From contig NZ_JAABNS010000001.1 in assembly GCF_009928425.1 (NCBI RefSeq), positions 434,001 through 498,000 on the forward strand: a stretch of DNA of 64,000 nt. The letters are read 5' to 3'. The notes under the pieces were generated by a model. The model was given only the letters and a program-made list of their open reading frames with translations. It had not been told where the DNA came from and ran no database searches. The position numbers were made by a program, and so were the translations under genes. The stretch comes from Pseudarthrobacter sp. ATCC 49987. Its GTDB lineage: Bacteria; Actinomycetota; Actinomycetes; Actinomycetales; Micrococcaceae. Positions 30,384-46,959 of this stretch are shown one piece after another (position 1 is the stretch's first letter; every line of letters begins with the position of its first letter).

Positions 30384-30407
30384 CCTTGCGGGTCGCCTGG
30401 GCCGTGC

Positions 30408-30477
30408 GGGGGCACTTTGAAGCCTCAAATGGGGGATCCCAGGGCCGGGCTGCGGCGAGTCCGTGTCGAAGTGCCCC
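30408..30477. repeat. GGGGCACTTTGA-family palindromic element, copy 1
   Basis: GGGGGCACTTTGA (30408-30420) and the inverted TCGAAGTGCCCC (30466-30477) bracket a core with TTTGAAGCCTCAAA. The right part (GAGTCCGTGTCGAAGTGCCCC) matches copies 2 and 3 elsewhere in the window. Confidence 0.75.
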
Positions 30478-30492
30478 TTGGCCGCAGCACGA

Positions 30493-30506
30493 GTTGTCCA
30501 CATGGC
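30493..30506 (+). promoter_or_regulatory. GTTGTCCACATGGC motif (DnaA-box-like) upstream of AbiEi-like gene 2
   Basis: The same 14 bases as at 21237, again ending 47 bases before the ATG of an AbiEi-like gene. The sequence between motif and start is otherwise not conserved. Confidence 0.6.
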
Positions 30507-30553
30507 ACTGCCCCGATGGACTCCTCCGGCCGGGGACAGGGCACATTGGCGGC

Positions 30554-32663: not shown

Positions 32664-32726
32664 GGAGTGTCCCGGTCGAATCTCAAAGGGGGCGGATGGG
32701 GCGGCTCCAAGGTTACGCTAACGGCT

Positions 32727-33461
32727 ATGAATAGCCCCATCCTGATTGCCTGCGCCCACGGCACCTCCAGCACCGAGGGTGCCGCCGAAGTCAACGCCCT
32801 CCGGGCCGGGATCGCCGCGCTGCGGCCGGGGCTCGACGTCCGCGAAGCCTACGTCGACGTCCAGGACCCCGAGCTGCCGGCTGTTGTCGCGGGCCTGCCG
32901 GTGGGGGAGGCCGCCGTCGTTGTCCCCCTGTTGCTCAGCGTCGGCTACCACGTCAAGGTGGACATCGCCCGCGCCGTCAAGAGCCGGCCCGGCACCCGCG
33001 CTGCCGCCCCGCTGGGCCCCGATCCGCGGCTCGCGGCGCTGCTGGACGTCCGGCTCCGGGAAGCCGGCGTGACCGACAACGACGCCGTGATCCTCGCCGC
33101 TGCCGGGTCCTCCGACCCCACCGCGGCGCAGAACGTCGAGGAACTCGCGGACCAGCTCCGTGCCCTGCGTTCCAACCGGATCGTGGCCGCGTACGGCGCG
33201 TCCGCGAAGCCGTCAGTGCCCGACGCCGTCGCCATGCTGCGCGAGGAGGCCGCCGGCGGTGCCGGCGCAGGGGAATCCGCCGGGGCCGTGGACCTGGGCG
33301 GCCGGGTGGTGATCGCTGCCTACCTGCTGGCACCTGGCTTCTTCCACGACCAGCTCGCCAAGGCCGGCGCGGACCTCGTCACCGCGGCACTGCTGCCGTC
33401 CCCGGTGCTCGCCGAAATCGCGCTGGAACGCTACGACGCGGCCCTCGCGGCCGGCGCCTGA
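32727..33461 (+). CDS. Sirohydrochlorin chelatase (CbiX-type)
   Basis: A 244-residue class II chelatase. The N-terminal half has LIACAHGTSSTEGA with the metal-site His and a DVQDPELPAVV strand; the second half repeats the fold, with ILAAAGSSDPTAAQ and AYLLAPGFFHDQLAKAGAD. In this setting, upstream of sir and cysG, ferrochelation of sirohydrochlorin to siroheme is the likely role, supplying Sir. TACGCT (32714-32719) is seven bases before the ATG. It does not carry the phased box promoter seen at sir and cysG. Confidence 0.87.
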   Translation: MNSPILIACAHGTSSTEGAAEVNALRAGIAALRPGLDVREAYVDVQDPELPAVVAGLPVGEAAVVVPLLLSVGYHVKVDIARAVKSRPGTRAAAPLGPDPRLAALLDVRLREAGVTDNDAVILAAAGSSDPTAAQNVEELADQLRALRSNRIVAAYGASAKPSVPDAVAMLREEAAGGAGAGESAGAVDLGGRVVIAAYLLAPGFFHDQLAKAGADLVTAALLPSPVLAEIALERYDAALAAGA

Positions 33462-33549: not shown

Positions 33550-33627
33550 GTGACGATTTGTTGCCCTAGGTGACCCCGCGTTTCTGACCCTTTGTGACGG
33601 CACTACGGCCACCCCTACAGTCGATCC
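33550..33627 (+). promoter_or_regulatory. Phased-box promoter of the sir-cysH-cysD-cysN operon
   Basis: Boxes begin every 10 bases: GTGAC 33550, GTTGC 33560, GTGAC 33570, GTTTC 33580. The -35 is TTGTGA (33592-33597) and, 18 bases on, the -10 is TACAGT (33616-33621), followed by six bases and the ATG. The same arrangement with identical spacing occurs at 40165 and 43853. Confidence 0.8.
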
Positions 33628-35376
33628 ATGACTGATACAGCTCTAGCCGGAGCGTCTGCGGACCAGGCTGCCCCAGGCCGTACCAAGCGCCCCACCAACC
33701 GCCCCGCCGCGAAGCCGCACGGGCAGTGGAAAGTGGACGGCACCGCGCCGCTGAACGCCAACGAAACCTGGAAGCAGGAAGACAACGGCCTTAACGTCCG
33801 CGAGCGTATCGAGTCCGTCTACTCCAAGCACGGCTTCGACTCAATCGACGGCACGGATTTGCACGGCCGCTTCCGCTGGTGGGGCCTCTACACCCAGCGC
33901 AAGCCCGGGATCGACGGCGGCAAGACCGCCACGCTCGAGCCGCACGAGCTCGAGGACAAGTACTTCATGCTGCGCGTCAGGATCGACGGCGGCGCCCTCA
34001 CCACCGAGCAGCTCCGGGTCATCGGCCAGATCTCCGTCGACTTCGCCCGTGACTCCGCCGACCTCACCGACCGCCAGAACATCCAGCTGCACTGGATCCG
34101 GGTCGAGGACGTGCCGGAAATCTGGCGCCGCCTCGAGTCGGTGGACCTGTCCACCACGGAGGCCTGCGGCGACGTCCCCCGCGTCATCCTCGGCTCGCCC
34201 GTCGCCGGCATCGCCAAGGACGAGATTATCGACCCGACCCCGCTGATCCACGAGCTCGCCGAACGCTTCATCGGTGACCCGGAACTGGCCAACCTGCCGC
34301 GAAAATTCAAGACCGCCATCACCGGCCACCCCAGCCAGGACGTGGTGCACGAGATCAACGACGTCGCCCTGGTGGGCCTGGTCCACCCCGAACTCGGCAT
34401 CGGATACGACCTCTGGGTGGGCGGCGCGCTCTCCACCAACCCCATGCTCGGCAAGCGCCTGGGCGCCTTCGTCCGGCCGGACCAGGCCGCCGACGTCTGG
34501 CTCGGCGTCACCAGCATCTTCCGCGACTACGGCTACCGCCGCATGCGCACCAAGGCCCGGCTGAAGTTCCTGCTGGCCGACTGGGGCACCGTGAAGTTCC
34601 GCCAGGTCCTCGAGGATGAATACCTCGGCTACAAGCTCGACGACGGCCCGGCCGCGCCCAAGCCCTCCACCCCGGGCGACCATATCGGCGTGCACGAGCA
34701 GAAGGACGGCAAGTTCTTCATCGGCGCCACCCCGCTGGCCGGCCGCCTCTCCGGCAGCCAGCTCGTGAAGCTCGCGGACACCCTGGAAGCCCGCGGCTCG
34801 CAGCGGCTGCGCACCACCCCGCACCAGAAGCTCGTGGTCCTCGACGTGCCCAAGGACCAGGTGGAACCGCTGGTCGCCGAACTCGACGCCCTGGGCCTCT
34901 CCGCCCGGCCGTCCGTGTTCCGCCGCGGCACCATCGCCTGCACCGGCATCGAATACTGCAAGCTCGCCATCGTCGAAACCAAGCTCACGGCCGCCACCGC
35001 CGTCGCCGAGCTGGAACGCCGCCTCGCCGACCTCGTCGAAACCGAGCAGCTCCCGCAGGCCCTGTCGCTGCACATCAACGGCTGCCCCAACTCCTGCGCC
35101 CGGATCCAGACCGCGGACATCGGCCTCAAGGGCATGATGCTTCCCACGCCCGACGGCGACCCCACCCCGGGTTTCCAGGTCCACCTCGGCGGCGGGCTGG
35201 CTTCCGACAGCCGCGAGGAAGCAGGCCTGGGACGCACCGTCCGCGGCCTCAAGGTCACGGCCGACGACCTGCCCGACTACGTCGAACGCGTGGTCCGGAA
35301 GTTCGTGGCCGACCACACCGAGGGCCAGACCTTCGCCGAATGGGCCTTCGCCGCCGACGAAGGTGATCTGCAGTGA
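33628..35376 (+). CDS. sir: Ferredoxin-dependent sulfite reductase (siroheme/4Fe-4S)
   Basis: A 582-residue enzyme reducing sulfite to sulfide with six electrons. Two ferrodoxin-like half-domains and two siroheme-binding domains are visible. The 4Fe-4S/siroheme cysteines are Cys438 and Cys444 (TIACTGIEYCKLA) and Cys486 and Cys490 (HINGCPNSCARIQ). DLTDRQNIQLHWIRVEDVPE is the conserved substrate-side strand. A nitrite reductase is the close alternative, but the cysH-cysD-cysN operon that follows makes sulfite the probable substrate. Electrons could come from ferredoxin via the Fpr at 45317. The promoter is a member of the shared phased-box class; the ATG is six bases from the -10. Confidence 0.93.
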   Translation: MTDTALAGASADQAAPGRTKRPTNRPAAKPHGQWKVDGTAPLNANETWKQEDNGLNVRERIESVYSKHGFDSIDGTDLHGRFRWWGLYTQRKPGIDGGKTATLEPHELEDKYFMLRVRIDGGALTTEQLRVIGQISVDFARDSADLTDRQNIQLHWIRVEDVPEIWRRLESVDLSTTEACGDVPRVILGSPVAGIAKDEIIDPTPLIHELAERFIGDPELANLPRKFKTAITGHPSQDVVHEINDVALVGLVHPELGIGYDLWVGGALSTNPMLGKRLGAFVRPDQAADVWLGVTSIFRDYGYRRMRTKARLKFLLADWGTVKFRQVLEDEYLGYKLDDGPAAPKPSTPGDHIGVHEQKDGKFFIGATPLAGRLSGSQLVKLADTLEARGSQRLRTTPHQKLVVLDVPKDQVEPLVAELDALGLSARPSVFRRGTIACTGIEYCKLAIVETKLTAATAVAELERRLADLVETEQLPQALSLHINGCPNSCARIQTADIGLKGMMLPTPDGDPTPGFQVHLGGGLASDSREEAGLGRTVRGLKVTADDLPDYVERVVRKFVADHTEGQTFAEWAFAADEGDLQ

Positions 35377-36083
35377 GCACCGTCCGCCGCACCCACGACG
35401 AGCTCAAGGTGATCGCCGAGTCCGGCGCCGCCGAGCTCGGCTGGGACGCCCCGGCCCGCGACGTCATCGCCTGGGTGGCCCGGAACTTCGAGCTGCCCGC
35501 CGTGGCCGTCGCCTGCTCCATGGCCGACGCCGTCCTCCCCGCTCTCGTCGCGGACCAGCTTCCCGGCGTCGACGTCCTCTTCCTGGAGACCGGATACCAC
35601 TTCCCGGAAACCTACGCGACGCGCGACGAGGTGGCAGCCAGCCTGCACGTGAACGTCGTGGACGTGCTCCCGGAGAACACCGTGGAGCTGCAGGACCGGC
35701 TCCTCGGCAAGGACCTCTTCGCCCGCGACCCCGCCCAGTGTTGCGCGCTGCGCAAGGTGGCCCCGCTGCGCCGCACCCTCGCCGGCTACGAACTCTGGTT
35801 CACCGGCGTCCGGCGCGACGAGGCCCCCACCCGCACCAACACCCCGCTGGTCACCTGGGACGAAACCAACGGCCTGGTCAAGGTCAACCCGGTCGCGGCC
35901 TGGAGCTTCGACCAGCTGGTCCAGTACTCCGACGACAACCTCCTCCCCGTCAACCCGCTGCTTTCACAGGGCTACCCGTCCATTGGCTGCCAGCCCTGCA
36001 CCCGCAAGGTAGCGCCCGGCGATGACCCCCGCGCCGGCCGCTGGGCAGGAACCGACAAGACAGAATGCGGACTACACGTATGA
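35373..36083 (+). CDS. cysH: Adenylyl-sulfate (APS) reductase CysH
   Basis: A 236-residue PAPS/APS reductase-family enzyme. VAVACSMADAVLPALV is the PP-loop-like nucleotide site. Cys123-Cys124 (QCCALRK) and Cys206-x2-Cys209 (GCQPCTRKV) are the 4Fe-4S ligands that mark the APS-using, iron-sulfur type. Cys232 in the C-terminal ECGLHV is the catalytic thiol. The product sulfite goes to the upstream-encoded Sir. GTG overlaps the sir stop (GTGA), and its own stop overlaps cysD (ATGA), so translation is coupled. Confidence 0.94.
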   Translation: MSTVRRTHDELKVIAESGAAELGWDAPARDVIAWVARNFELPAVAVACSMADAVLPALVADQLPGVDVLFLETGYHFPETYATRDEVAASLHVNVVDVLPENTVELQDRLLGKDLFARDPAQCCALRKVAPLRRTLAGYELWFTGVRRDEAPTRTNTPLVTWDETNGLVKVNPVAAWSFDQLVQYSDDNLLPVNPLLSQGYPSIGCQPCTRKVAPGDDPRAGRWAGTDKTECGLHV

Positions 36084-37150
36084 GTACCCAAATCACCAAC
36101 GAGGACCTGGAGCTGTCTGTGCTGGACAACGACGCTGCTGAGACGCCGATTGCCGCCCAGGGAGTGGCATCGGGCCTGTCGGAGCCGCACGCTGGGCTGA
36201 TCGAAGATCAGCCGCGCGGCGCAGGGGCGGGGGCGGCAATCGGCGTCGCAGCCCCGGCCCGCCTCTCCAGCCTGGACACCCTCGAGTCCGAGGCGATTCA
36301 CATCATCCGCGAGGTGGTTGCCGAGTTTGAGAAGCCGGCGCTGCTGTTTTCCGGCGGCAAGGACTCCGTGGTCATGCTGCACCTGGCGACCAAGGCGTTC
36401 TGGCCCGGCAAGGTGCCCTTCCCGGTCCTGCATGTGGACACCGGGCACAACTTTCCCGAGGTCATCGAGTTCCGCGACCGGACCGTGGAGCGGCTGGGAC
36501 TCAAGCTCGTCGTCGGCTCCGTGCAGGAGTTTATCGATTCCGGCGAGCTGGCCGAGCGTGCCGACGGCACGCGCAATCCGTTGCAGACCGTCCCGCTGCT
36601 GGACGCGATCCAGCGCAACAAGTTCGACGCCGTCTTCGGCGGCGGCCGCCGGGACGAGGACAAGGCCCGGGCGAAGGAGCGCATCCTGAGCCTGCGCGAC
36701 GAGTTCGGCCAGTGGGATCCGCGCAACCAGCGGCCCGAGCTGTGGAACCTGTACAACGGCCGCCACACGGTGGGCCAGCACGTCCGCGCGTTCCCGATCA
36801 GCAACTGGACCGAGCTGGACGTCTGGCGCTACATCGAGCGCGAAAACATCGACCTCCCGGGCCTTTACTACGCCCACGACCGCGAGGTCTTCGCCCGCGA
36901 AGGCATGTGGCGCGCGGTCGGCGAGGTCTCCCGGCCCCGCGACAACGAAGAGGTCATCACCAAGACTGTCCGCTACCGGACCGTCGGCGACATGTCCTGC
37001 ACCGGTGCCGTCGAATCGGCTGCCGCCACCGTGCGCGACGTCGTCATCGAAGTTGCCGCCTCCACCATCACCGAACGTGGCGCCACCCGGGCGGATGACC
37101 GCATCTCCGAGGCCGCCATGGAAGACCGCAAGAAGGATGGCTATTTCTAA
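36080..37150 (+). CDS. cysD: Sulfate adenylyltransferase subunit 2 (CysD)
   Basis: A 356-residue ATP-pyrophosphatase-family subunit that, with CysN, forms APS from sulfate and ATP. The PP-loop is LLFSGGKDSVVMLHLA; VLHVDTGHNFPEVIEFRDR, FGGGRRDEDKARAKER and ISNWTELDVWRYIERENIDL are family hallmarks. The N-terminus carries ~55 extra residues before LESEAIHIIREV compared with the usual ~300-residue protein. In this stretch the DNA has a palindrome, GGCTGATC/GATCAGCC near 36195. The ATG overlaps the cysH stop. Confidence 0.94.
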   Translation: MSTQITNEDLELSVLDNDAAETPIAAQGVASGLSEPHAGLIEDQPRGAGAGAAIGVAAPARLSSLDTLESEAIHIIREVVAEFEKPALLFSGGKDSVVMLHLATKAFWPGKVPFPVLHVDTGHNFPEVIEFRDRTVERLGLKLVVGSVQEFIDSGELAERADGTRNPLQTVPLLDAIQRNKFDAVFGGGRRDEDKARAKERILSLRDEFGQWDPRNQRPELWNLYNGRHTVGQHVRAFPISNWTELDVWRYIERENIDLPGLYYAHDREVFAREGMWRAVGEVSRPRDNEEVITKTVRYRTVGDMSCTGAVESAAATVRDVVIEVAASTITERGATRADDRISEAAMEDRKKDGYF

Positions 37151-38598
37151 TGAGCACCGACATCGACACCGCCCGCGAGGCCGCCCTGCTTGACGAGGCC
37201 CCGCTCGCGCACCGGGCTCTGTCTTCGACCCTCTTCCGCTTCGCGACTGCCGGATCGGTCGACGACGGCAAGTCCACGCTGGTGGGCAGGCTCCTGCACG
37301 ACTCCAAGGCGATCCTCGCCGACCAGCTCGACTCCGTCGCCCGCACCTCGGCGGACCGCGGGTTCGGCGGTTCGGCTGGCGGGATTGACTTGGCCCTGCT
37401 GACCGACGGCCTGCGCGCCGAGCGGGAACAGGGCATCACCATCGACGTCGCCTACCGCTACTTCGCCACGGACCGCCGCAGCTTCATCCTCGCGGACTGC
37501 CCCGGCCACGTGCAGTACACCAAGAACACGGTGACCGGCGCGTCCACTGCGGATGCCGTCGTCGTGCTCATTGACGCCCGCAAGGGTGTCCTCGAACAGA
37601 CCCGCCGGCATCTCTCTGTGCTGCAGCTGCTGCGGGTGGCGCACGTGATTGTCGCCGTGAACAAGATCGACCTGGTGGACTTCAGCGAGGCCGTGTTCCG
37701 CGGGATCGAGGCCGACGTGCAGAAGGTCGGCCGGGAGCTCGGGCTAGGCCGTGACGATTCAAATACAGGCGGCATCGCTGATCTTTTCGTCATCCCCGTG
37801 TCCGCGCTCGACGGCGACAACGTGGTGGACCGCTCGGAGCGCACGCCCTGGTATGACGGGCCGGCCCTGCTCGAGGTCCTCGAGACACTGCCGGCCGCGG
37901 ACGAACTCGAAAGCCACCTGGAAAGCTTCCGGTTCCCCGTGCAGCTGGTCATCCGGCCGCAGGGCGCGCTGGCTCCCGACGCCGTCGCCAGCGGACTCGA
38001 CGTCGAAGGTTACCGCGACTACCGGGCCTACGCCGGGCAGATCACCGAGGGCTCGGTTAAAGTGGGGGACAAGGTCAGCGTCCTCACCCCGGGCCAGGCC
38101 CCGCGCACCACCACAGTGAGCGGCATCGACTTCGCCGGACTGGAACTGACCGAGGCCGGGGCCCCGCAATCCGTGGCGCTGCGCCTCGCGGATGAGTTCG
38201 ACGTCGCCCGCGGGGATACGATCGCGGCGGCGGGCACTATCAGGGAGGCCTCGGCGGACCTGTACGCCGCACTATGCTGGCTCTCGCCCAAGCCGCTCCG
38301 CGAGGGCGCCAAGGTGCTGGTCAAGCACGGCACCCGCACGGTCCAGGCCCTGGTCCGGAACGTGACGGGCAAGCTGGACCTGGCCAACTTCCAGCTGGAG
38401 CCCACCTCCACCCTGGAGCTCAACGACATTGGACATGCCCAGCTGCGGCTCGCCGCGCCGCTGCCGCTCGAGAACTACCTGCACCACCGCCGCACCGGGG
38501 CGTTCCTCGTGATCGACCCGCTGGACGGAAACACCCTCGCCGCGGGCCTCGTCAACGACCACCCGGGAGACCACGAGGACGAGCGCTACTCGATCTGA
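37150..38598 (+). CDS. cysN: Sulfate adenylyltransferase subunit 1, GTPase (CysN)
   Basis: A 482-residue EF-Tu-like GTPase that drives APS formation by CysD. G1 is AGSVDDGKSTLVGRLL, G2/switch GITIDVAYRYF, G3 LADCPGHVQYTKNTVTG, G4 NKIDLVDF and G5 VSALDGDNVV. Domains II and III follow, and the protein ends at the CysN boundary without a fused CysC kinase; this agrees with the APS-type CysH. The ATG overlaps the cysD stop (TAATG). It is the last gene of the sir operon. Confidence 0.94.
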   Translation: MSTDIDTAREAALLDEAPLAHRALSSTLFRFATAGSVDDGKSTLVGRLLHDSKAILADQLDSVARTSADRGFGGSAGGIDLALLTDGLRAEREQGITIDVAYRYFATDRRSFILADCPGHVQYTKNTVTGASTADAVVVLIDARKGVLEQTRRHLSVLQLLRVAHVIVAVNKIDLVDFSEAVFRGIEADVQKVGRELGLGRDDSNTGGIADLFVIPVSALDGDNVVDRSERTPWYDGPALLEVLETLPAADELESHLESFRFPVQLVIRPQGALAPDAVASGLDVEGYRDYRAYAGQITEGSVKVGDKVSVLTPGQAPRTTTVSGIDFAGLELTEAGAPQSVALRLADEFDVARGDTIAAAGTIREASADLYAALCWLSPKPLREGAKVLVKHGTRTVQALVRNVTGKLDLANFQLEPTSTLELNDIGHAQLRLAAPLPLENYLHHRRTGAFLVIDPLDGNTLAAGLVNDHPGDHEDERYSI

Positions 38599-38966
38599 GC
38601 CGCTCCTGAGCCGGGGCGGCCCCAGCTAGAACAGCCCTACCCCGCGTCCCCAGCTATTCCAGCCTGGTGATGCGGGGTGGAGCCGTTTCTGGGCCCATCT
38701 CGGGAGCGGGACCTCTACCCGGGGCACTTACGTCGGCCGCCGGTCGCCGCAGACGGGTCCTGCTCCACGCTGCGCAAATGATCCCGCGCTGCGCCAACTA
38801 TCCTGCGCTGCGCCATGGGTTCCGCGCCCCGCAAAAACGCTGTCGACGCCGGAATACGGGCGCGCCCGCGTCATTGCGCGTCGCGAGGAAATCTGCGCCG
38901 CGAAGTCGGCGTTCCGGGCCCTTGCCACCCGGGCACAGGACGTCGATCATCGTCTTGGGAGGCGCC
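38599..38966. repeat. 368-base gap with paired words and 19-nt tandem repeats
   Basis: No gene is visible. CCCCAGCTA words occur 28 bases apart (38620 and 38648). From 38769 three copies of GCTGCGC recur every 19 bases (38769, 38788, 38807), each followed by a short A/T-rich piece ending in CCGC or CTGC. The right end holds the rtcB ribosome site. Confidence 0.6.
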
Positions 38967-40133
38967 GTGGAAGTCATCAACAGCCGGCTCATCAGCTGGG
39001 CTTCGATCCTGGATGACGCGACCCGCGCGCAGGCCCTGGCCACGGCACAGCTGCCCATCATCTATCCGCATCTGGCGCTGATGCCGGACGCCCACCTGGG
39101 CCTGGGCGCCACCGTGGGCTCCGTCATCCCCACCCTTGGCGCGGTCATCCCTGCGGCCGTGGGCGTTGACATCGGCTGCGGCATGATCGCCGTCCGCACG
39201 CAGTATGCCCTCAAGGACCTGCCCGCGGACCGGAAACGGCTACGCGAGGGCATTGAGCACGCCATTCCGCTGTCCGCCGGCCACTTCAACCACGGGATCA
39301 GCGCCACCGCCGCACCCCGCATTGCCCAACTGCGGCGAATGGCAGCCCACGCGCGCTTCGACCCTGCCCAGTACGCCGCGAACTGGACACTCCAGCTGGG
39401 ATCGCTGGGCTCGGGCAACCACTTCATCGAGGTGTGCGTGGATGAGGGGGACGCCGTCTGGCTTTTCCTGCATTCCGGCTCCCGCGGCGTCGGCAATAAA
39501 CTCGCGCAGCGGCACATCGGCGAGGCCCGGAGCATGGTCGCACGCCGGAACATCGCCCTGCCTCACCCGGACCTCGCCTACCTCGAGGAAGGCACCGCCG
39601 AATTCGACCGTTACATCAGGGAGCTCCGCTGGGCCCAGCACTTCGCCCTGCTGAACCGCGAGGAGATGATGGACCGGGTGGTCCGGCAGTTCGAATTTTG
39701 GATCGGCGGCTCCGTCCGCGAGGCCGAACGGATCAACTGCCACCACAACTTCACCGCGAAGGAATGGCACTACGGCAAGTCCGTCTGGGTCTCGCGCAAA
39801 GGAGCCATCAGGGCCGAAGCGGGCGACCCCGGGCTGATTCCCGGCTCCATGGGCACCGCGTCCTACGTCGTCGTCGGGCTGGGAAACCGCGCGTCGCTGA
39901 ACTCATCGCCGCACGGCGCCGGCAGGGAGTACTCGCGGAACGCCGCGAAGAAGACCTTTACCCTGGCCGAGCTGAAGGCCGCCATGCGGGGCATCGAATT
40001 CCGTCCCAGCGAGGCCTTCATTGACGAGATCCCGGCGGCCTACAAGCCCATTGACCAGGTAATGCGCGACTCCGCGGACCTCGTCAAGATACGGCACAAG
40101 CTCCGGCAGCTCGTCAACGTTAAAGGCGACTAG
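38967..40133 (+). CDS. rtcB: RNA-splicing ligase RtcB
   Basis: A 388-residue GTP- and Mn-dependent ligase joining 2',3'-cyclic phosphate and 5'-OH RNA ends. Metal and GMP-site motifs are visible: PDAHLGLGATVGSVIPT, VGVDIGCGMIAVRT (metal Cys), LGSGNHFIEV, HSGSRGVGN, INCHHNFTAKE and SPHGAGREYSR with the guanylylated His. The GTG at 38967 (VEVINSRLISWASIL) has a GGGAGG ribosome site; an upstream in-frame extension is repeat-derived. No archease, RtcA or RtcR-like regulator is adjacent. It separates cysN from the sulfonate ABC locus, with no evident functional link to sulfur. Confidence 0.93.
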   Translation: MEVINSRLISWASILDDATRAQALATAQLPIIYPHLALMPDAHLGLGATVGSVIPTLGAVIPAAVGVDIGCGMIAVRTQYALKDLPADRKRLREGIEHAIPLSAGHFNHGISATAAPRIAQLRRMAAHARFDPAQYAANWTLQLGSLGSGNHFIEVCVDEGDAVWLFLHSGSRGVGNKLAQRHIGEARSMVARRNIALPHPDLAYLEEGTAEFDRYIRELRWAQHFALLNREEMMDRVVRQFEFWIGGSVREAERINCHHNFTAKEWHYGKSVWVSRKGAIRAEAGDPGLIPGSMGTASYVVVGLGNRASLNSSPHGAGREYSRNAAKKTFTLAELKAAMRGIEFRPSEAFIDEIPAAYKPIDQVMRDSADLVKIRHKLRQLVNVKGD

Positions 40134-40164
40134 TCCGCTGAAGAGCCGGATGGCGGCTCCGCAT

Positions 40165-40242
40165 GTGACGCTGCATGAACTCACGTGACCCCGGGTTTCC
40201 GGGCCGTTGAACAGGGTTCCTGCCAGTCCCTATGGTGAACCA
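40165..40242 (+). promoter_or_regulatory. Phased-box promoter upstream of the sulfonate ABC locus
   Basis: Boxes start at GTGAC 40165, ATGAA 40175, GTGAC 40185 and GTTTC 40195. The -35 is TTGAAC (40207-40212), the spacer is 18 bases, the -10 is TATGGT (40231-40236), then six bases to an ATG at 40243. That ATG opens a 22-codon frame, not the binding-protein gene. Confidence 0.8.
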
Positions 40243-40311
40243 ATGACAACCATGGATCGGCTCTCCCACGGCCCCCGCGGCGAGTTCCGGGGGCGATGTC
40301 GCCGGCGCTGA
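40243..40311 (+). CDS. Candidate leaderless leader peptide (22 aa)
   Basis: The frame MTTMDRLSHGPRGEFRGRCRRR starts exactly six bases after the -10 of the sulfur-type promoter and ends 44 bases before the chosen ATG of the binding-protein gene. It contains one Cys codon just before three Arg codons and the stop. A GCCCCCG/CGGGGGC hairpin can form within it. A cysteine-responsive attenuator would fit the locus, as known for leaderless cysteine-containing uORFs in mycobacteria, but here this is inference. Confidence 0.5.
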   Translation: MTTMDRLSHGPRGEFRGRCRRR

Positions 40312-40355
40312 CCACCCGCCCGGCCCCGCACCCCCCCACGAACAGGACCTCCCGC

Positions 40356-41531
40356 ATGTCATCCCCGTCGAACAACACCACCCCCGGCCAGACCCCCGGA
40401 ACCACCCGGATCGTCGCCGGCGAAACCACCAAACCCAGGCGCAAGCGCACCCTGGAGATCAGCCTGGCTGTCGGCCTCGTGCTGCTGATCGGTGCCGGTG
40501 CCGCCGTCGCGTCCACGGTGTCCCGCAACACGGAAGCCGCGCCCGCAGCGGCGGCTTCCGACACCCCCGCCGCCGAACTCAAGCTCGGCTACTTCGGCAA
40601 CATCACGCATGCCCCGGCCCTCGTCGGGGTCAGCCAGGGCCTGATCGCCAAGAGCCTCGGCGAGACCAAGCTCAGCACCCAGGTCTTCAACGCCGGGCCT
40701 GCCGCGATCGAGGCCCTCAACGCCGGCGCCATCGATGCCACCTACATCGGTCCCAACCCCGCCATCAACTCCTACGTCAAGAGCAAGGGCGAATCGATCA
40801 GCATCCTCGCCGGTGCAGCGTCCGGCGGGGCGCAGCTGGTGGTCAAACCCGAGATCGCCTCGGCCGCGGACCTCAAAGGCAAGAAGCTCGCGACGCCGCA
40901 GCTCGGCGGCACGCAGGACGTGGCACTGCGCGCCTGGCTGGGCAAGCAGGGCTACAAGACCAACACAGACGGCAGCGGCGACGTCGCCATCAACCCCACC
41001 GAGAACGCCCAGACCCTGAAGCTGTTCCAGGACGGCAAGCTCGACGGCGCGTGGCTGCCGGAGCCCTGGGCCTCCCGCCTGGTCCTCCAGGCCGGCGCGA
41101 AAGTCCTCGTCGATGAAAAGGACCTTTGGGACAAAGGCGAATTCATCACCACCGTCCTGATCGTCAACAAGAAATTCGCCGCCGAGCACCCCGCCACGGT
41201 CAAGGCGCTGCTGAAGGGCCACGTCGAATCCGTGGACTGGCTCAACGCCGCGCCCGCCGCGGACAGGTCCACGGTCCTCAACGCCGCCCTCAAGGAATCC
41301 GCCGGCGCCGCCCTGCCGGCCGACGTGATCGACCGTTCGCTCAAGAACATCGTCTTCACCGTCGACCCGCTCGCCGGAACGTACAAGAAGCTGCTCCAGG
41401 ACGGGGTCGACGCCGGCACCACCACCCAGGCCGACATCAACGGCATCTTCGACCTCACTGCCCTGAACAGCGTCCTGAGCGGCAGCCCCGCCGGGAAGAA
41501 GATCTCCGCGCAGGGACTGGGCAAGGACTAG
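40356..41531 (+). CDS. ABC transporter substrate-binding protein, sulfonate/taurine type
   Basis: A 391-residue protein with a cytoplasmic Arg/Lys-rich N-terminus, a hydrophobic signal/anchor (LEISLAVGLVLLIGAGAAVA) and a periplasmic-type SsuA/TauA/NrtA fold. Key stretches are ELKLGYFGNITHAPALVGVS, FNAGPAAIEALNAGAIDATY, YIGPNPAINSYVKSKG and LKGKKLATPQLGGTQDVALR. It likely captures an alkanesulfonate, taurine or another sulfur source. ATG 40356 has an AGGAC site; ATG 40296, overlapping the leader ORF, is an alternative. The sulfur-type promoter argues for a sulfur compound. Confidence 0.87.
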   Translation: MSSPSNNTTPGQTPGTTRIVAGETTKPRRKRTLEISLAVGLVLLIGAGAAVASTVSRNTEAAPAAAASDTPAAELKLGYFGNITHAPALVGVSQGLIAKSLGETKLSTQVFNAGPAAIEALNAGAIDATYIGPNPAINSYVKSKGESISILAGAASGGAQLVVKPEIASAADLKGKKLATPQLGGTQDVALRAWLGKQGYKTNTDGSGDVAINPTENAQTLKLFQDGKLDGAWLPEPWASRLVLQAGAKVLVDEKDLWDKGEFITTVLIVNKKFAAEHPATVKALLKGHVESVDWLNAAPAADRSTVLNAALKESAGAALPADVIDRSLKNIVFTVDPLAGTYKKLLQDGVDAGTTTQADINGIFDLTALNSVLSGSPAGKKISAQGLGKD

Positions 41532-41576
41532 CCAGTTCCCGCCGCCAGCGCCGCCACCATTAGTTAGGACGTGACC

Positions 41577-42302
41577 ATGCCAGTCGTACTGGAAAACCTG
41601 GGCAAGCGCTTCGGCGACGGCGCCCCGGTGCTGGACGACGTCAACGCCAGCATCGGGCAGGGCGAGTTCGTCGCCCTGCTCGGTGCGTCCGGCTGCGGCA
41701 AGTCCACCCTGCTGAACATTATGGCGGGACTGGAGGCCCCGACGTCGGGCGCCCTGGAGGTCCCCAGCGACGGCGCCGCGTTTATGTTCCAGGACGCGGC
41801 CCTGTTCCCCTGGTTGACTGCGCGGGAAAACATTGAGCTGGCCCTGAAGCTGCGCGGAGTCGGGAAGGCCGAGCGCCGGGTGAAAGCCGACGAGCTCCTG
41901 GACCTCGTGCACCTGGGCGGCGCGGGGGACAAGCGCCCGCACGAGCTCTCCGGCGGGATGCGCCAGCGTGTAGCACTGGCCCGGTCGCTCGCTCAGGACC
42001 GGCAGCTGCTCCTGATGGACGAGCCGTTCGCCGCCCTCGACGCGATCACCCGCGACCTGCTGCACGATGAGCTGGAGCGGATCTGGAAGGAAACCGGCCG
42101 CACCATCGTATTTGTCACGCACAACGTCCGCGAGGCGGTCCGGCTGGGCCAGCGCGTGCTGCTGCTCTCCTCCCGGCCCGGCCGCGTGGTGCGGGAGTGG
42201 CACGTCAGCGAAGAACACCGCACCGACGCCGGACTGGCCGGCCAGCTCACCGGCGAAATCACTGCCCGGCTACGCGAGGAGATCCGCCGCCATGCCAAGT
42301 AA
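41577..42302 (+). CDS. ABC transporter ATP-binding protein (SsuB/TauB-like)
   Basis: A 241-residue ATPase with Walker A LLGASGCGKSTLLNI, Q-loop MFQDAALFPWLTARENI, signature HELSGGMRQRVALARSL, Walker B LLLMDEPFAALDAITRD and switch His VFVTHNVREAVRL. The FPW Q-loop and ALDAITR are typical of the nitrate/sulfonate/taurine subgroup. ATG 41577 is placed by AGGA at 41566-41569; a GTG six bases earlier is too close to that site. It overlaps the permease gene by 11 bases. Confidence 0.92.
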   Translation: MPVVLENLGKRFGDGAPVLDDVNASIGQGEFVALLGASGCGKSTLLNIMAGLEAPTSGALEVPSDGAAFMFQDAALFPWLTARENIELALKLRGVGKAERRVKADELLDLVHLGGAGDKRPHELSGGMRQRVALARSLAQDRQLLLMDEPFAALDAITRDLLHDELERIWKETGRTIVFVTHNVREAVRLGQRVLLLSSRPGRVVREWHVSEEHRTDAGLAGQLTGEITARLREEIRRHAK

Positions 42303-43227
42303 ACAAACGTCGCTGGTAGAGCCCGGCGAGACGCGCCACATCACCGCGGCCCTGACCCGGTCCTCCACGGGCTCGGCCGACCTCCGCGAACTCGAGGCCG
42401 GCCTGGACTCGCTCCAGTCCGACGCTGCGCGCAAGGCCCGGATCGACTGGAGCCGGATCCTGCTGCCGGTGGCCGCCATCGCGGTCCTCATCCTTGCCTG
42501 GCAGCTTTACGTGTCGATGGGCTTCAAACGGCAGGACCTCGTGCCCGGCCCCCTGGACGTGGTGGCCCAGTTTGGCCACCTCTGGGCAGAGGGGAAACTG
42601 CAGGAAGCGGTTTGGACCTCGCTGCAGCGCGGACTCGTGGGATTCCTGATCAGCGTGGCCATCGCCACCCCGATCGGACTCGTGCTGGCCCAGGTGGCCC
42701 CGCTCCGCCGCGCCTTCGGCCCGCTGATCTCCGGGCTGCAGGTGCTGCCGTCCGTGGCGTGGGTGCCCGCCGCCATCATCTGGTTCGGCCTCACCGACGC
42801 CACCGTGTACTTCGTGGTGTTCATGGGCGCCATCCCCTCGATCATCAACGGCCTGATCTCCGGCGTGGACCAGATCCCGCCGCAGTACCGCAGCGTCGGG
42901 AAGGTCCTGGGCGCCTCCCGGGTCCAGCTGGCGCTGCAGATCATCCTCCCGGCGGCGTTGCCCGGCTACCTGGGCGGACTCAAGCAGGGCTGGGCCTTCT
43001 CCTGGCGTTCCCTCATGGCCGCGGAAATCATCGCCGTCGGCGGCTCCATCGGCTTTGGCTTGGGATCTATGCTGAACCAGGGCCGCGACCTGTCCGACAT
43101 GACCATCGTGATGTCCGCGATCCTGTTGATCCTCGCCGTCGGCATCCTGATCGAACTGCTCGTTTTCGCCCCGATCGAAAAGCGGTTGCTCCGCCGTCGT
43201 GGCCTCCTCGCCGGCAGCACCCGCTAA
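42292..43227 (+). CDS. ABC transporter permease (SsuC/TauC-like)
   Basis: A 311-residue membrane protein. A hydrophilic ~65-residue N-terminus precedes six TM segments. The binding-protein-dependent permease loop reads SVGKVLGASRVQLALQIILPAALPGYLGGLK, and ALVPGPLD-like QDLVPGPLDVVAQF follows TM1, both typical of the SsuC family. The ATG has a GAGGAG site and overlaps the ATPase end. The transporter set ends at a strong hairpin (43252-43284). Confidence 0.91.
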   Translation: MPSKQTSLVEPGETRHITAALTRSSTGSADLRELEAGLDSLQSDAARKARIDWSRILLPVAAIAVLILAWQLYVSMGFKRQDLVPGPLDVVAQFGHLWAEGKLQEAVWTSLQRGLVGFLISVAIATPIGLVLAQVAPLRRAFGPLISGLQVLPSVAWVPAAIIWFGLTDATVYFVVFMGAIPSIINGLISGVDQIPPQYRSVGKVLGASRVQLALQIILPAALPGYLGGLKQGWAFSWRSLMAAEIIAVGGSIGFGLGSMLNQGRDLSDMTIVMSAILLILAVGILIELLVFAPIEKRLLRRRGLLAGSTR

Positions 43228-43251
43228 CCCCCGGCACCCCACCGTCTAACC

Positions 43252-43284
43252 AGGGCCCGACGGCGACTACCGCCGTCGGGCCCT
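43252..43284 (+). terminator. Perfect 14-bp hairpin after the sulfonate ABC operon
   Basis: AGGGCCCGACGGCG and CGCCGTCGGGCCCT pair perfectly around ACTAC, 24 bases after the permease stop. The following bases are only moderately T-rich. Confidence 0.85.
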
Positions 43285-43397
43285 GCTGTGTCTGCGGTGT
43301 CCTCCTCGCGACTCCTTGTCCGGACCCCGGGACAGGCCTAAACTCGCGGCTATAGGCCGGGTTCCGGCCGATCCAGCCCAATTCTGAGGAGACAGCC

Positions 43398-43694
43398 GTG
43401 GCGCCACAATACGGAGTGCTGGCACTGGTCGAAGCCAAGCCGGGGAAGGAACAGGATGTCTGGGACTTCCTCAGCGGGGGCCGCGACATCGTTCTGACGG
43501 AGCCCGGCACCCGGACTTGGTATGCCTTCCGGGTCAACGGGAACACCTTCGGCATCTTCGACACGTTCGACACCGAGGAGGACCGGCAAGCCCATCTCAA
43601 CGGCGCGATCCCCGCGGCCCTCGGCCAGCACGGGCCCGAGCTGCTGGCCAAGGACCCCGACATCAAACTGATCGAGCTCATCGCGGTGAAATAG
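43398..43694 (+). CDS. Antibiotic biosynthesis monooxygenase (ABM)-fold protein
   Basis: A 98-residue ferredoxin-like alpha/beta protein. VLALVEAKPGKEQDVWDFLS opens the fold, GTRTWYAFRVNGNTFGIFDT is the central strand pair, and EEDRQAHLNGAIPAAL the second helix; it is a dimeric ABM layout. Such proteins include small monooxygenases, haem degraders and many of unknown role. A strong TGAGGAGA site precedes the GTG. It is monocistronic, between a terminator and a repeat element. Confidence 0.8.
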   Translation: MAPQYGVLALVEAKPGKEQDVWDFLSGGRDIVLTEPGTRTWYAFRVNGNTFGIFDTFDTEEDRQAHLNGAIPAALGQHGPELLAKDPDIKLIELIAVK

Positions 43695-43723
43695 GTCCAT
43701 GGCTGCCCGCCCGCCTGCCGAAC

Positions 43724-43793
43724 GGGGGCACATTGACACGGACACGCCGTGATGTGAGCCCGAAGTGGCTGTTCCGGCCGTCAAAGTGCCCCC
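43724..43793. repeat. GGGGCACTTTGA-family palindromic element, copy 3
   Basis: GGGGGCACATTGA at 43724 and TCAAAGTGCCCCC ending at 43793 are inverted words. The left 26 bases match the reverse complement of copy 2 with one mismatch. It lies between the ABM gene and the cysG promoter. Confidence 0.8.
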
Positions 43794-43852
43794 GGACGGC
43801 GACAGGGTGACCCGGACCGCGACCCGGACCGCAGCCTGACCGCGCCAACTGT

Positions 43853-43930
43853 GTGACGTGGCGTTACCCCGCGTGAACTGGTGTTTCCCTACCGTTGTTC
43901 CGCCATATGACGCCGCCCTATCGTCGATGC
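43853..43930 (+). promoter_or_regulatory. Phased-box promoter of cysG
   Basis: Boxes start at GTGAC 43853, GTTAC 43863, GTGAA 43873 and GTTTC 43883. The -35 is TTGTTC (43895-43900), 18-base spacer, -10 TATCGT (43919-43924), then six bases to the ATG at 43931. Spacing is identical to the promoters at 33550 and 40165, and it fixes the cysG start. Confidence 0.8.
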
Positions 43931-45226
43931 ATGGCAATTCAGGACATTTACCCCACGGCGCTGCGCCTCCTCGGCCGCCCCGTGCTGGTCGTCGGCGGCG
44001 GTCCGGTCGCCGCGCGCCGCGCCAAGGGACTGCTCGACGCCGGTGCCCGCGTCACCGTCGTCGCGACCCTTGCCTGCCCCGCCCTGCATGACCTGGCCGA
44101 CGCCGGCCTCCTCACTTGGGAACCACGCGAGTACCGCAGCCCCGACGTCGACGGCGCCTGGTTCGTCCAGACCGCGACCGGCGACGCCGCCGTGGACGCC
44201 CGGGTATCGGCCGACGCCGAGGCGCAGCGCATCTGGTGCGTGAACGCCTCCGACCACGAAGCCTCCGCCGCCTGGACGCCCGCCGTCGCCGTCGTGGATG
44301 ACGTCAAGATCGCCGTCAACGCCGGGGGAGACCCACGCCGTGCCATGGCCCTGCGCGACGCCGTTGCCACCGCCCTGGAAACCGGGGACCTGCCGCTGCG
44401 CCGGCGCCGTGCCGCCACGGGTGCCGGCGCCGTTGCCCTCGTGGGCGGCGGACCCGGCGACTCCGGACTCATCACCGTCCGCGGCAGGCGGCTCCTGGGA
44501 CAGGCCGACGTCGTCGTCGCGGACCGGCTAGGCCCCCGCGAACTCCTGGCCGAACTGGCCCCCGACGTCCGTGTCATCGAGGTCGGCAAAACCCCCGGCC
44601 ACCACCCGGTCCCGCAGGCCAAGATCAACCGCATCCTCGTCGACGAAGCCCTGCAGGGCCACCGCGTGGTCCGGCTCAAGGGCGGTGACCCCTACGTCCT
44701 GGGCCGCGGCGGCGAGGAAGCCGAGTTCTGCCGGCAGCACGGCGTCGAGGTCGAGGTGGTCTCCGGCGTCACATCCGCCATCTCGGTCCCGGCCGCCGCC
44801 GGCATCCCGGTCACGCACCGCGGGCTGGCCAAGGGCTTCAGTGTGGTGACCGGCCACGAGGAGCTGTCCGAAGTCCCGGCGCGCGCGGACCACACCGTGA
44901 TCCTGCTCATGGGCGTGGGCCAGCTGCGCGATTCCGCGGCCTCACTGGCCCGCGCCGGTTTGCCTCCGGAGACACCTGTTGGCATCGTAGAGAATGGTTA
45001 CTTGCCGAACCAGCGGGTGACCATCGGAACGCTCGGGACTATCGCGGACCAGGCGGAGGCCGCAGGCGTCGCGAACCCAGCCGTGATCGTGATCGGTGAC
45101 GTGGTCCGCGTCAGCCCGTTCGCGCCGTCGCACTTCAAGACCGCGGACTTCAGCACCACCACCCCGAACGCACCCCGCACACCCCGCACACCCCGCCCCA
45201 CCAAGACCCGCGTACTGACCCCCTAA
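43931..45226 (+). CDS. cysG: Siroheme synthase: dehydrogenase domain fused to uroporphyrinogen-III methyltransferase
   Basis: A 431-residue fusion. Residues ~1-155 are the NAD-dependent precorrin-2 dehydrogenase-like domain (VLVVGGGPVAARRAKGLLDA, NASDHEASAAWTPAV, VNAGGDPRRA). Residues ~165-400 are the SAM uroporphyrinogen-III methyltransferase (VALVGGGPGDSGLITVRGRR, LKGGDPYVLGRGGEEAEFC, SGVTSAISVPAAAGIPVTHR). It makes sirohydrochlorin for Sir; chelation may be by its own domain or by CbiX. A Pro/Thr/Arg tail (NAPRTPRTPRPTK) arises from CACACCCCG-type tandem DNA repeats. Confidence 0.93.
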   Translation: MAIQDIYPTALRLLGRPVLVVGGGPVAARRAKGLLDAGARVTVVATLACPALHDLADAGLLTWEPREYRSPDVDGAWFVQTATGDAAVDARVSADAEAQRIWCVNASDHEASAAWTPAVAVVDDVKIAVNAGGDPRRAMALRDAVATALETGDLPLRRRRAATGAGAVALVGGGPGDSGLITVRGRRLLGQADVVVADRLGPRELLAELAPDVRVIEVGKTPGHHPVPQAKINRILVDEALQGHRVVRLKGGDPYVLGRGGEEAEFCRQHGVEVEVVSGVTSAISVPAAAGIPVTHRGLAKGFSVVTGHEELSEVPARADHTVILLMGVGQLRDSAASLARAGLPPETPVGIVENGYLPNQRVTIGTLGTIADQAEAAGVANPAVIVIGDVVRVSPFAPSHFKTADFSTTTPNAPRTPRTPRPTKTRVLTP

Positions 45227-45236
45227 AACCCGTCGA

Positions 45237-45286
45237 TTGCTCCATAAGTGCCGTTATCAAGCCTCAAAAGGGCCGTTATGGAGCAA
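45237..45286. repeat. 11-bp inverted repeat TTGCTCCATAA/TTATGGAGCAA
   Basis: The perfect arms (45237-45247 and 45276-45286) flank a 28-base loop. The loop contains a direct repeat, GCCGTTAT, and the core AAGCCTCAAAAGGG, which also appears in the GGGGCACTTTGA elements. It lies between cysG and fpr and may end one message or modulate the next. Confidence 0.7.
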
Positions 45287-45316
45287 CGGATGCAGAAGAA
45301 CAAAGGAACCACAGCC

Positions 45317-46780
45317 GTGTCAACGAACACCCCTGCAGGAACTGCTGCCCGCCCGCTGCGCATCGCCGTCGTCGGCTCCGGACCCGCCGGTGTGTACGCC
45401 GCGGACATCCTGACCAAGAGCGAAGCCGTGAAAAGCGGCGAACTCACGGTCAGCATCGACCTCTTCGACCGCTACCCGGCGCCCTACGGACTGATCCGCT
45501 ACGGTGTCGCTCCGGACCACCCGCGCATCAAGGGCATCGTCAACGCCCTGCACAAGGTCCTGGACCGCGGCGACATCCGCTTCTTCGGCAACGTCGACTA
45601 CGGCACGGACCTCACCCTCGAGGACCTCCGCACCCACTACGACGCCGTCATCTTCGCCACCGGGGCCATCAAGGACGCGGACCTGAACATCCCCGGCATC
45701 GAGCTCGAGGGCTCCTACGGCGGCGCCGACTTCGTTTCCTGGTACGACGGCCACCCGGACGTGTCCCGCGAGTGGCCCCTGGAGGCCAAGGAAGTCGCCG
45801 TGATCGGCAACGGCAACGTGGCCCTGGACGTGGCCCGGATGCTCTCCAAGCACGCCGATGACCTGCTGGTCTCCGAAATCCCGGATAACGTGTACCGCGG
45901 CCTGAAGGATTCCCCGGTCACGGACGTGCACGTCTTCGGCCGCCGCGGCCCGGCGCAGGTCAAGTTCACCCCGCTGGAGCTGCGCGAGCTCTCCCACTCC
46001 AAGGACGTGGACATCATCCTCTACGCCGAGGACTTCGAGTTCGACGACGAATCTGACCGGCAGATCCAGAGCAACAACCAGACCAAGACCATGGTCGGAA
46101 CGCTCACCAACTGGATCGCGGAGCAGCCCGAGGACCTCTCCGAGCTCACGGCCTCCCGCCGCCTGCACCTGCACTTCCTGCACAGCCCGGTCGAGATCTA
46201 TGGAACAACAGGCGAAGCCGGTGCGCCCGGCCGCGTCGCCGGCATCAAGTTCGAGCGCACCGAGCTGGACGGCACGGGCAATGCCCGCGGCACCGGCGAG
46301 TTCGTCGACTACCCGGTCCAGGCCGTGTACCGCGCCATCGGCTACTTCGGCTCGTCGCTGCCCGAGGTCGAGTTCGACCACAGCAGGGGTGTTGTGCCCA
46401 ACGACGGCGGCCGCGTCCTGGATGCCTCAGGCACCCACGTGCCGGGCATCTACGCCACGGGCTGGATCAAGCGCGGGCCCGTCGGGCTTATCGGCCACAC
46501 CAAGGGCGACGCCCTCGAAACCGTCACCTACCTGCTGGAGGATCGCGACAACCTGCCGCTCGCGGCGGCACCGGCTCCGGGCGCGGTCGTCGAACTGCTG
46601 GAAAACCGGGGCGTGCAGTACACCAGCTGGGAAGGCTGGCTGGCCCTGGACGCACACGAGCGGTCCCTCGGCGAAAAGGCGAGTGCCGGTGCGGACGGGA
46701 TCCAGCGCGAGCGCATCAAGGTGGTCCCGCGCGAGGCCATGGTCCAGATCTCCCGCGACGGGGTGGCTGCGGAGGTCTGA
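45317..46780 (+). CDS. fprA: Ferredoxin/flavodoxin-NADP+ reductase (FprA-like)
   Basis: About 487 residues, adrenodoxin-reductase-type flavoprotein. FAD site: IAVVGSGPAGVYAADIL. Family marker: YPAPYGLIRYGVAPDHPRIK. NADP site: VAVIGNGNVALDVARML. C-terminal FAD contact: GWIKRGPVGLIGHTKGDALE. It passes electrons between NADPH and ferredoxin; proximity to sir and cysG suggests a role in sulfite reduction. GTG 45317 with an AAAGGA site is preferred; ATG 45278 and 45290 are in frame and possible. A paralogue begins at 63856. Confidence 0.92.
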   Translation: MSTNTPAGTAARPLRIAVVGSGPAGVYAADILTKSEAVKSGELTVSIDLFDRYPAPYGLIRYGVAPDHPRIKGIVNALHKVLDRGDIRFFGNVDYGTDLTLEDLRTHYDAVIFATGAIKDADLNIPGIELEGSYGGADFVSWYDGHPDVSREWPLEAKEVAVIGNGNVALDVARMLSKHADDLLVSEIPDNVYRGLKDSPVTDVHVFGRRGPAQVKFTPLELRELSHSKDVDIILYAEDFEFDDESDRQIQSNNQTKTMVGTLTNWIAEQPEDLSELTASRRLHLHFLHSPVEIYGTTGEAGAPGRVAGIKFERTELDGTGNARGTGEFVDYPVQAVYRAIGYFGSSLPEVEFDHSRGVVPNDGGRVLDASGTHVPGIYATGWIKRGPVGLIGHTKGDALETVTYLLEDRDNLPLAAAPAPGAVVELLENRGVQYTSWEGWLALDAHERSLGEKASAGADGIQRERIKVVPREAMVQISRDGVAAEV

Positions 46781-46908: not shown

Positions 46909-46959
46909 ATGGATGAGCAGTGCAGGCAACAGGCCCCGGCACCGGGAATGCGCCGATGA
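46909..46959 (+). CDS. Candidate leaderless upstream ORF of topoisomerase IB (16 aa)
   Basis: MDEQCRQQAPAPGMRR starts seven bases after TAGGCT (46896-46901) and its TGA overlaps the ATG of the topoisomerase gene (ATGA). The arrangement suggests leaderless initiation and coupling to the downstream gene. The evidence is positional only. Confidence 0.45.
   Translation: MDEQCRQQAPAPGMRR

Follow-up and report, generated by a model that had tools for sequence, protein, structure and literature searches.

How do Micrococcaceae switch on sulfur-assimilation genes that lie in separate transcription units? The question is raised by a 64,000-nucleotide stretch of the Pseudarthrobacter sp. ATCC 49987 genome (contig NZ_JAABNS010000001.1, positions 434,001 to 498,000, forward strand; hereafter the window), in which the sir-cysHDN genes, an ABC importer locus and cysG are each preceded by the same array of four five-base boxes. 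Sequence comparison strongly supports this box array as the operator of a sulfur-assimilation regulon. The best explanation, which we consider fairly probable, is that an orphan winged-helix activator, itself under the control of a leader containing Cys codons, reads the array at all three promoters.

Layout of the box array

The segments beginning at 33550, 40165 and 43853 each consist of 78 nt followed by an ATG and align with one another without gaps, in agreement with a preliminary description of this DNA that had reported three gapless 81-base segments. The internal layout given there was likewise recovered, and each promoter reads with the words quoted for it there: boxes begin at offsets 1, 11, 21 and 31, TTG at offset 43 and TANNGT at offset 67 (spacer of 18), and the ATG follows six bases on, at offset 79. 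The array words are GTGAC / RTTNC or ATGAA / GTGAM / GTTTC, separated by 5-base spacers (period 10), and the start of the last box lies 36 nt from the -10 element in all three promoters. Binding of one activator on one DNA face would fit this fixed register to the -10 element.

We searched the strain's own 4.4-Mb genome (G000) with a strict and a relaxed pattern, each against a backward control. With up to 3 mismatches, the strict pattern occurred at 7 places (2 for the control), comprising the three window promoters, one sequence at three places and one 2-mismatch site. The relaxed pattern occurred at 16 places against 14 for the control, and 3-mismatch matches are therefore meaningless. Four relaxed matches had at most one mismatch, and an ATG 78 nt on was found only in the window's three; no fourth copy in the 4.4-Mb genome combined at most one mismatch with this geometry. 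The matches at C1:1678539 (2 mismatches), C1:3444539 (1) and C1:3215498 (2) were rejected as further sites, having no ATG at +78. The first of these (G000:C1:1678539-1678573) precedes an acyl-CoA dehydrogenase-like gene (function assigned by eye). An identical 35-nt three-mismatch match was present at G000:C1:46788, C1:4156346 and C2:52475 and is likely a repeated element.

Conservation in Micrococcaceae

A scan of named genomes with the Sir protein gave 588 loci, of which the best 80 were analysed. A regular expression located the array no more than 110 nt from sir in 47 of the 80, and the distance from box 1 to the ATG among those 47 was 78 nt in 39, 79 nt in 5 and 77 nt in 3. A position weight matrix (PWM) of 45 columns was built from the 38 distinct sequences among the 47 sir sites and applied, at a cut-off of 12 bits, to both strands of the 80 loci (1,626,199 bases). 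All 94 matches that it yielded fell at sir (52), cysG (24) or the ABC gene (18); with the matrix reversed, or with its columns shuffled in ten versions, the same loci gave no match. Because the sir sites had trained the matrix, the independent evidence consists of the 42 cysG and ABC matches. Such a scan of the Arthrobacter group had been proposed in the preliminary description, and its outcome is that, within the scanned loci, matches stand only 5' of the sir, ABC and cysG orthologues, at a near-fixed distance.

The second box was specific to the promoter class, being RTTTC or GTTGC at most sir sites, ATGAAC at ABC and GTTACC at cysG. ATGAAC was thus ruled out as a decayed GTTNC and is a conserved variant of the ABC promoter class, whose orthologous arrays lie 77-78 nt from the ATG. 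Another Micrococcaceae genus (G251) had exactly three pattern matches, at sir, ABC and cysG, and in a pattern search of 21 genomes 10 of the 12 matches fell at these promoters.

These comparisons bear on an alternative in which no regulator is involved and the three promoters resemble one another because their core is conserved or because one of them was copied recently inside the cluster. Copying would agree with the closeness of the three window promoters, all inside about 10.4 kb. However, conservation reaches -78, well past a core promoter, and the box variants are class-specific across loci and genera, which indicates that the promoter copies are old. In addition, the Microbacteriaceae arrays share the period but differ in their words, and the ATG comes later. 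An origin without any regulator is accordingly extremely improbable.

Genes served by the three promoters

The features of the window are listed in Table 1. The sir-cysHDN genes were recognised by Pfam (NIR_SIR, PAPS_reduct twice and GTP_EFTU), with gene names taken from family and order, and the start of sir at 33628 is likely leaderless. The earlier description assigned the promoters to sir-cysHDN, a sulfonate-type ABC locus and cysG, but the ATG at 40243 opens a 22-codon open reading frame (ORF) and not the ABC protein. Judged from relatives, the ABC binding protein probably starts at 40356. Among 27 other loci matching the ABC-promoter expression, the equivalent ATG is the start of the binding protein in 20, and in the other 7 it opens an ORF of 18-22 codons that resembles the window ORF, with GRC[RS] near its end. 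The ORF at the leaderless ABC ATG is possibly a second Cys-sensing leader.

Table 1. Promoter elements and genes of the window, with coordinates counted from its first base.
Feature	Coordinates	Strand	Details
CbiX-type chelatase gene	32667..33461	+	5' of sir array; Pfam CbiX; siroheme supply by family
sir box array	33550..33584	+	GTGAC (33550), GTTGC (33560), GTGAC (33570), GTTTC (33580); 10-bp period; PWM score 63.3
sir core promoter	33592..33627	+	-35 TTGTGA (33592), -10 TACAGT (33616)
sir	33628-35376	+	
cysH	35373-36083	+	
cysD	36065-37150	+	
cysN	37150-38598	+	
ABC box array	40165..40199	+	GTGAC (40165), ATGAA (40175), GTGAC (40185), GTTTC (40195)
ABC core promoter	40207..40242	+	-35 TTGAAC (40207), -10 TATGGT (40231)
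22-codon ORF at ABC promoter	40243..40311	+	End GRCRRR, one Cys codon near stop
ABC locus	40356..43227	+	Substrate-binding protein (NMT1_2), ATPase 41571-42302, permease frame 42067-43227; Pfam
cysG box array	43853..43887	+	GTGAC (43853), GTTAC (43863), GTGAA (43873), GTTTC (43883); PWM score 21.9
cysG core promoter	43895..43930	+	-35 TTGTTC (43895), -10 TATCGT (43919)
cysG (siroheme synthase)	43931-45226	+	Pfam NAD_binding_7 and TP_methylase
Ferredoxin-NADP reductase-like gene	45248-46780	+	Pfam Pyr_redox_2; name by eye
DUF559/AbiEi-type gene	30386-31390		Around the sulfur genes
RtcB RNA ligase	38667-40133		Around the sulfur genes
Topoisomerase IB	46920-47945		Around the sulfur genes

Arrays in Microbacteriaceae and across the order

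The sir promoters of Cryobacterium, Agromyces and Microbacterium carry a purer GTGAC array, with GTGAC-type repeats at period 10, including four exact GTGAC copies in each of L066, L068 and L071 (Cryobacterium) and a row of six units, GTGAC or GCGAC, in L086 (Agromyces). Over 25 Microbacteriaceae loci, a set that leaves out L060, L067, L078 and L081, 44 of the 47 GTGAC-GTGAC distances of up to 45 nt found 5' of sir were multiples of 10, and all 18 distance-10 GTGAC pairs in the entire loci were 5' of sir. The ATG lies farther from the array than in Micrococcaceae. The last box is 35-38 nt from the -10 element in 18 of 21 Microbacteriaceae, and this register, common to the two families, is the best argument from sequence that the bound factor may contact RNA polymerase. 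Read by eye, three Cryobacterium loci have the ABC and fpr genes behind sir-cysHDN in what looks like a single operon, which may explain the presence of one array there and three in Arthrobacter.

Four GTGAC boxes with at most one mismatch were found in 12 of 297 genomes of the order. Readable arrays among these, other than tandem repeats, precede sir (G125 and G227, both confirmed), the ABC gene of G251 and, by eye, an OsmC-like gene (G249) and an SBP_bac_5-like gene (G054). The G249 array (L107) was rejected as a sir promoter, as tblastn was negative. Three exact GTGAC boxes occurred in 16 of 150 Microbacteriaceae genomes, compared with 5 genomes for the backward control, and 3 of the 16 arrays were simple tandem repeats. 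Pfam neighbours of the Microbacteriaceae arrays included a rhodanese, an FMN reductase beside a luciferase-like monooxygenase, a Cys/Met-metabolism PLP enzyme, an NlpA lipoprotein, an ABC ATPase and an SBP_bac_5 protein. The arrays may thus mark a wider sulfur regulon in this family, as these neighbours suggest, and the luciferase-like, SBP_bac_5 and acyl-CoA dehydrogenase genes would have sulfur roles. In L142, L147, L148, L150 and L160, all Microbacteriaceae, the array is oriented away from the adjacent gene. Such reversed arrays, like the GTCAY words found before the leader of the winged-helix gene (described below), could mean action from either strand or repression.

Sir was present in 76 of 149 genomes of the order. 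The regions upstream of sir were fetched for 70 of these 76 (one region was too short), and the array score of each was compared with the maximum of 60 shuffles. This maximum was exceeded in 8 of 11 regions from Micrococcaceae and Microbacteriaceae (our families f1 and f19, identified from genus names and lineages) and in 3 of 58 from other families.

An orphan winged-helix protein as the candidate reader

We clustered the 1,457 ORFs of the 80 loci and inspected the listed clusters by eye for a conserved regulator beside sir; only an AbiEi-type gene resembled a transcription factor. The candidate was reached by another route: about 540 nt from one Microbacteriaceae array stands a gene encoding a protein similar to an orphan winged-helix protein of the strain, an adjacency that may be due to chance. 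The strain has 13 matches to Trans_reg_C. The candidate gene (G000:C1:3197337-3198197, minus strand) encodes a 287-aa product with Trans_reg_C (PF00486, E 1.1e-21) and no other Pfam domain, and Pfam detected no receiver domain in its N-terminal half. Its structure model (mean pLDDT 65) was good for the DNA-binding domain, with confidence below 50 for residues 1-91, and the model of the N-terminal domain was uninformative. The nearest solved structures to the DNA-binding domain were GlnR (including DNA complexes), RegX3 and PhoB; GTnAC-type words are therefore the expected target of such a helix. In particular, ERTIDVHIRRLRSKLG of the candidate is close to TRTVDVHVRRLRAKLG in the strain's own GlnR.

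Strong matches to the candidate (E up to 1e-40) were obtained in 11 of 11 Micrococcaceae, 9 of 9 Microbacteriaceae and 5 of 10 genomes of a further family (f6, with named homologues from Brevibacterium), and the N-terminal motif was present in the other five f6 genomes. Overall, 29 of 30 array-bearing genomes encoded it.

PhoB/OmpR-type operators carry winged-helix subunits on tandem direct-repeat half-sites at activated promoters. The arrangement that we propose is the same in placing winged-helix subunits on tandem half-sites; it differs in the six units of the Agromyces array and in that the candidate has no detectable receiver domain.

The likeness to GlnR also supports a rival explanation, in which GlnR itself, or a partnership of GlnR with the winged-helix protein, binds the array and couples sulfur assimilation to nitrogen state. 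The strain's GlnR-like protein (L120) has a recognition helix nearly identical to that of the candidate, whose best fold match is GlnR bound to consensus DNA. According to the accessible part of PMC10704036, the GlnR box reads gTnAc-n6-GaAAc-n6-GtnAC-n6-GAAAc with a period of 11. The GlnR resemblance pointed out earlier is therefore sound, since alternating five-base direct-repeat words in a-b-a-b order are common to both systems, as is a GlnR-type winged helix. However, the array has a period of 10, its second word is GTTTC-like where the GlnR box has GaAAc, its targets are sulfur and not nitrogen genes, and the N-terminal half of the candidate differs. Moreover, in the other families of the order the candidate query matched only winged-helix domains that are probably of the GlnR kind, and almost no arrays were found 5' of sir. 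We therefore regard a role of GlnR at the array as improbable.

A regulator of the NnaR type, with a HemD and a winged-helix domain, would instead couple siroheme supply to sulfite reduction. Such a HEM4 and Trans_reg_C protein is present in the strain (L089, beside its nir genes) and, like the candidate, is an orphan OmpR-type winged-helix protein without a receiver domain, from which it differs in N-terminal domain and site. An NnaR-type gene also lies 7-10 kb from sir in three Cryobacterium loci, but this linkage spans unrelated genes. NnaR was found in 26 of the 30 array-bearing genomes and not in the other 4, and its site, given as CTCAC-n16-GTGAG in the accessible part of PMC6277429, was not present by eye in the three window segments. 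That NnaR reads the array is thus very unlikely. The strain's nir-type cluster (L133, G000:C1:2556000-2568000) comprises a methylase gene and the NnaR-type HemD-winged-helix gene, with no array scoring at least 17.

Finally, another regulator encoded elsewhere (ROK, LysR or other) might read the array, while the winged-helix protein with its Cys leader serves other genes. The persistence of that protein in genomes without sir or the array agrees with this possibility. In Corynebacterium glutamicum, the sulfur regulators CysR and SsuR are ROK proteins with activation of the sulfite-reductase gene cluster and leaderless cysR and ssuR transcripts, as far as the accessible part of PMC2580772 reports. 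The same part gives their sites as TGAATnnAAT-type inverted repeats, unlike the direct-repeat array, which makes CysR, an option in the preliminary description, an unlikely reader. No conserved transcription-factor cluster was recognised by eye near sir in the 80 loci, and, in an analysis whose searches did not extend to the strain's other regulator families, we hold a regulator of another family to be unlikely. The orphan winged-helix protein remains our preferred reader.

A Cys-codon leader upstream of the candidate gene

A short ORF 5' of the candidate gene ends in Cys codons, with the ending ..RCCRMHA in this strain, typically ..MMM..MCCRMCR in Microbacteriaceae and ..CVRCR or ..CVRGR in five f6 genomes. 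A CRM-ending leader was found in all 12 distinct sir-bearing Micrococcaceae, 10 of them with adjacent Cys codons, and in every one of the 27 Microbacteriaceae loci whose upstream sequence was long enough (one genome represented twice). In f6, the expression found a Cys leader in 5 of 10 genomes, with weaker forms in some others. By comparison, a similar filter passed 4 of 1,399 background ORFs and one of the strain's 8 winged-helix frames, that of the candidate. The leader word TGYTGYCGNATG was discarded as a marker, being uninformative alone (12 occurrences in the genome versus 9 for the backward control), and the four leaders tried matched none of the NCBIfam leader-peptide families.

Three Met codons often precede the Cys codons in Microbacteriaceae leaders (..MMM..CCRMC., e.g., L173, L174 and L175). 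The combination of Met and Cys codons suggests sensing of both sulfur amino acids. In this family, a TTGAC-type -35 and a -10 element stand directly before the leader ATG, and the leader itself is thus probably leaderless. For one leader RNA, folding gave z = -3.54. In Micrococcaceae, the Cys-codon segment TCGAATGC can pair over 8 bases with a segment about 100 nt 3' in 5 of 6 loci; a second possible partner lies about 45 nt 3' in at least 3 loci.

Canestrari 2020 is said to treat Cys-rich leader ORFs of mycobacterial cys operons, and a 2014 paper reportedly deals with how expression of ROK genes (PF00480) is controlled and with sulfur. Cys-rich leader ORFs 5' of such operons are described in the accessible parts of PMC1262725 and PMC9094748, and the short ORF with Cys codons near the stop (PMC1262725, same limit) is common to both systems. 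The mycobacterial leaders precede cys operons, whereas the leader here precedes a regulator gene and, in Microbacteriaceae, contains Met codons as well.

The promoter of the candidate gene contains related words. Of 14 Micrococcaceae, 11 have a GTTAC-n15-GTTAC pair 5' of the leader (0.2% of shuffles), and the remaining three have such a pair with n16. In Microbacteriaceae, the word GTCAY, which is a GTGAC-type word on the opposite strand, occurs in 25 of 26 located candidate promoters, and 12 of the 26 have a GTCAY pair 10-12 nt apart before the -35 element (0.02% of shuffles for 10-11 nt), often ending 3 nt 5' of it. The forward word [AG]TGAC gave no pair at these promoters. These words suggest autoregulation by the candidate or control by the same factor. 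A GTCTCA..ATGYGGAC-like stretch is conserved just 5' of the GTTAC pair in several Micrococcaceae (L162-L165 and L287-L293, by eye).

Proposed circuit

In the circuit that we favour, scarcity of charged Cys-tRNA would stall the ribosome on the leader, shift the pairing of the leader RNA and allow translation of the activator. The activator would then fill the array head to tail, with one subunit for each 10-bp turn and all subunits on the same face of the DNA, from -78 to -44. Bound beside a weak -35 element, it would recruit RNA polymerase to the leaderless promoters of sir-cysHDN, the ABC importer and cysG-fpr, acting as an activator rather than a repressor, and would thereby turn sulfate assimilation on. 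It may also act on its own promoter.

Several observations weigh against this circuit. Concerning the array, 2 of the 12 matches in the 21 genomes fall at unrelated f6 genes, and the array-bearing Microbacterium kyungheense (L075) has no candidate match at 1e-35. Concerning the protein, its gene is unlinked to the proposed targets, the GlnR recognition helix is nearly the same, and co-distribution at the level of families is common to many genes. Furthermore, seven sir-less Micrococcaceae keep the candidate and have no match of this array pattern, and the leader is clear in just 2 of these 7, so that the protein must have other targets. Concerning the leader, it has a single Cys codon in the array-bearing Arthrobacter L290 and L291, and its pairing extends over no more than 0-7 bases across the 8 loci examined in Microbacteriaceae. 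The words at the candidate's own promoter differ from the sir array in spacing and orientation, and 14 of 26 Microbacteriaceae have no GTCAY pair.

A broader formulation, to which we give an even chance, is a two-tier circuit in Micrococcales. In the first tier, stalling on the leader (at Cys codons, or at Cys and Met codons in Microbacteriaceae) would set the level of a master activator. In the second, 10-bp arrays would read this level alone, with feedback at the activator's own promoter, and their targets would be sulfate assimilation and, in Microbacteriaceae, wider sulfur scavenging.

Significance

The control of sulfur assimilation in actinobacteria outside Corynebacterium is little known; according to the accessible part of a 2011 review, regulators comparable to those of Corynebacterium had not been identified in mycobacteria (PMC3141025). 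Our literature searches, for which subscription papers were mostly outside reach, returned no description of the motif or of the candidate protein. With the array, an operator is defined for two large bacterial families, together with a small regulon and a candidate regulator. The findings also suggest that winged-helix box arrays can work with a period of either 10 or 11 bp, and that a leader with Cys codons can control a regulator gene instead of an enzyme operon. If the two-tier circuit is true, its activator would serve the function that CysB has in E. coli and CysR in Corynebacterium, as a member of an unrelated protein family and with no small-molecule sensor.

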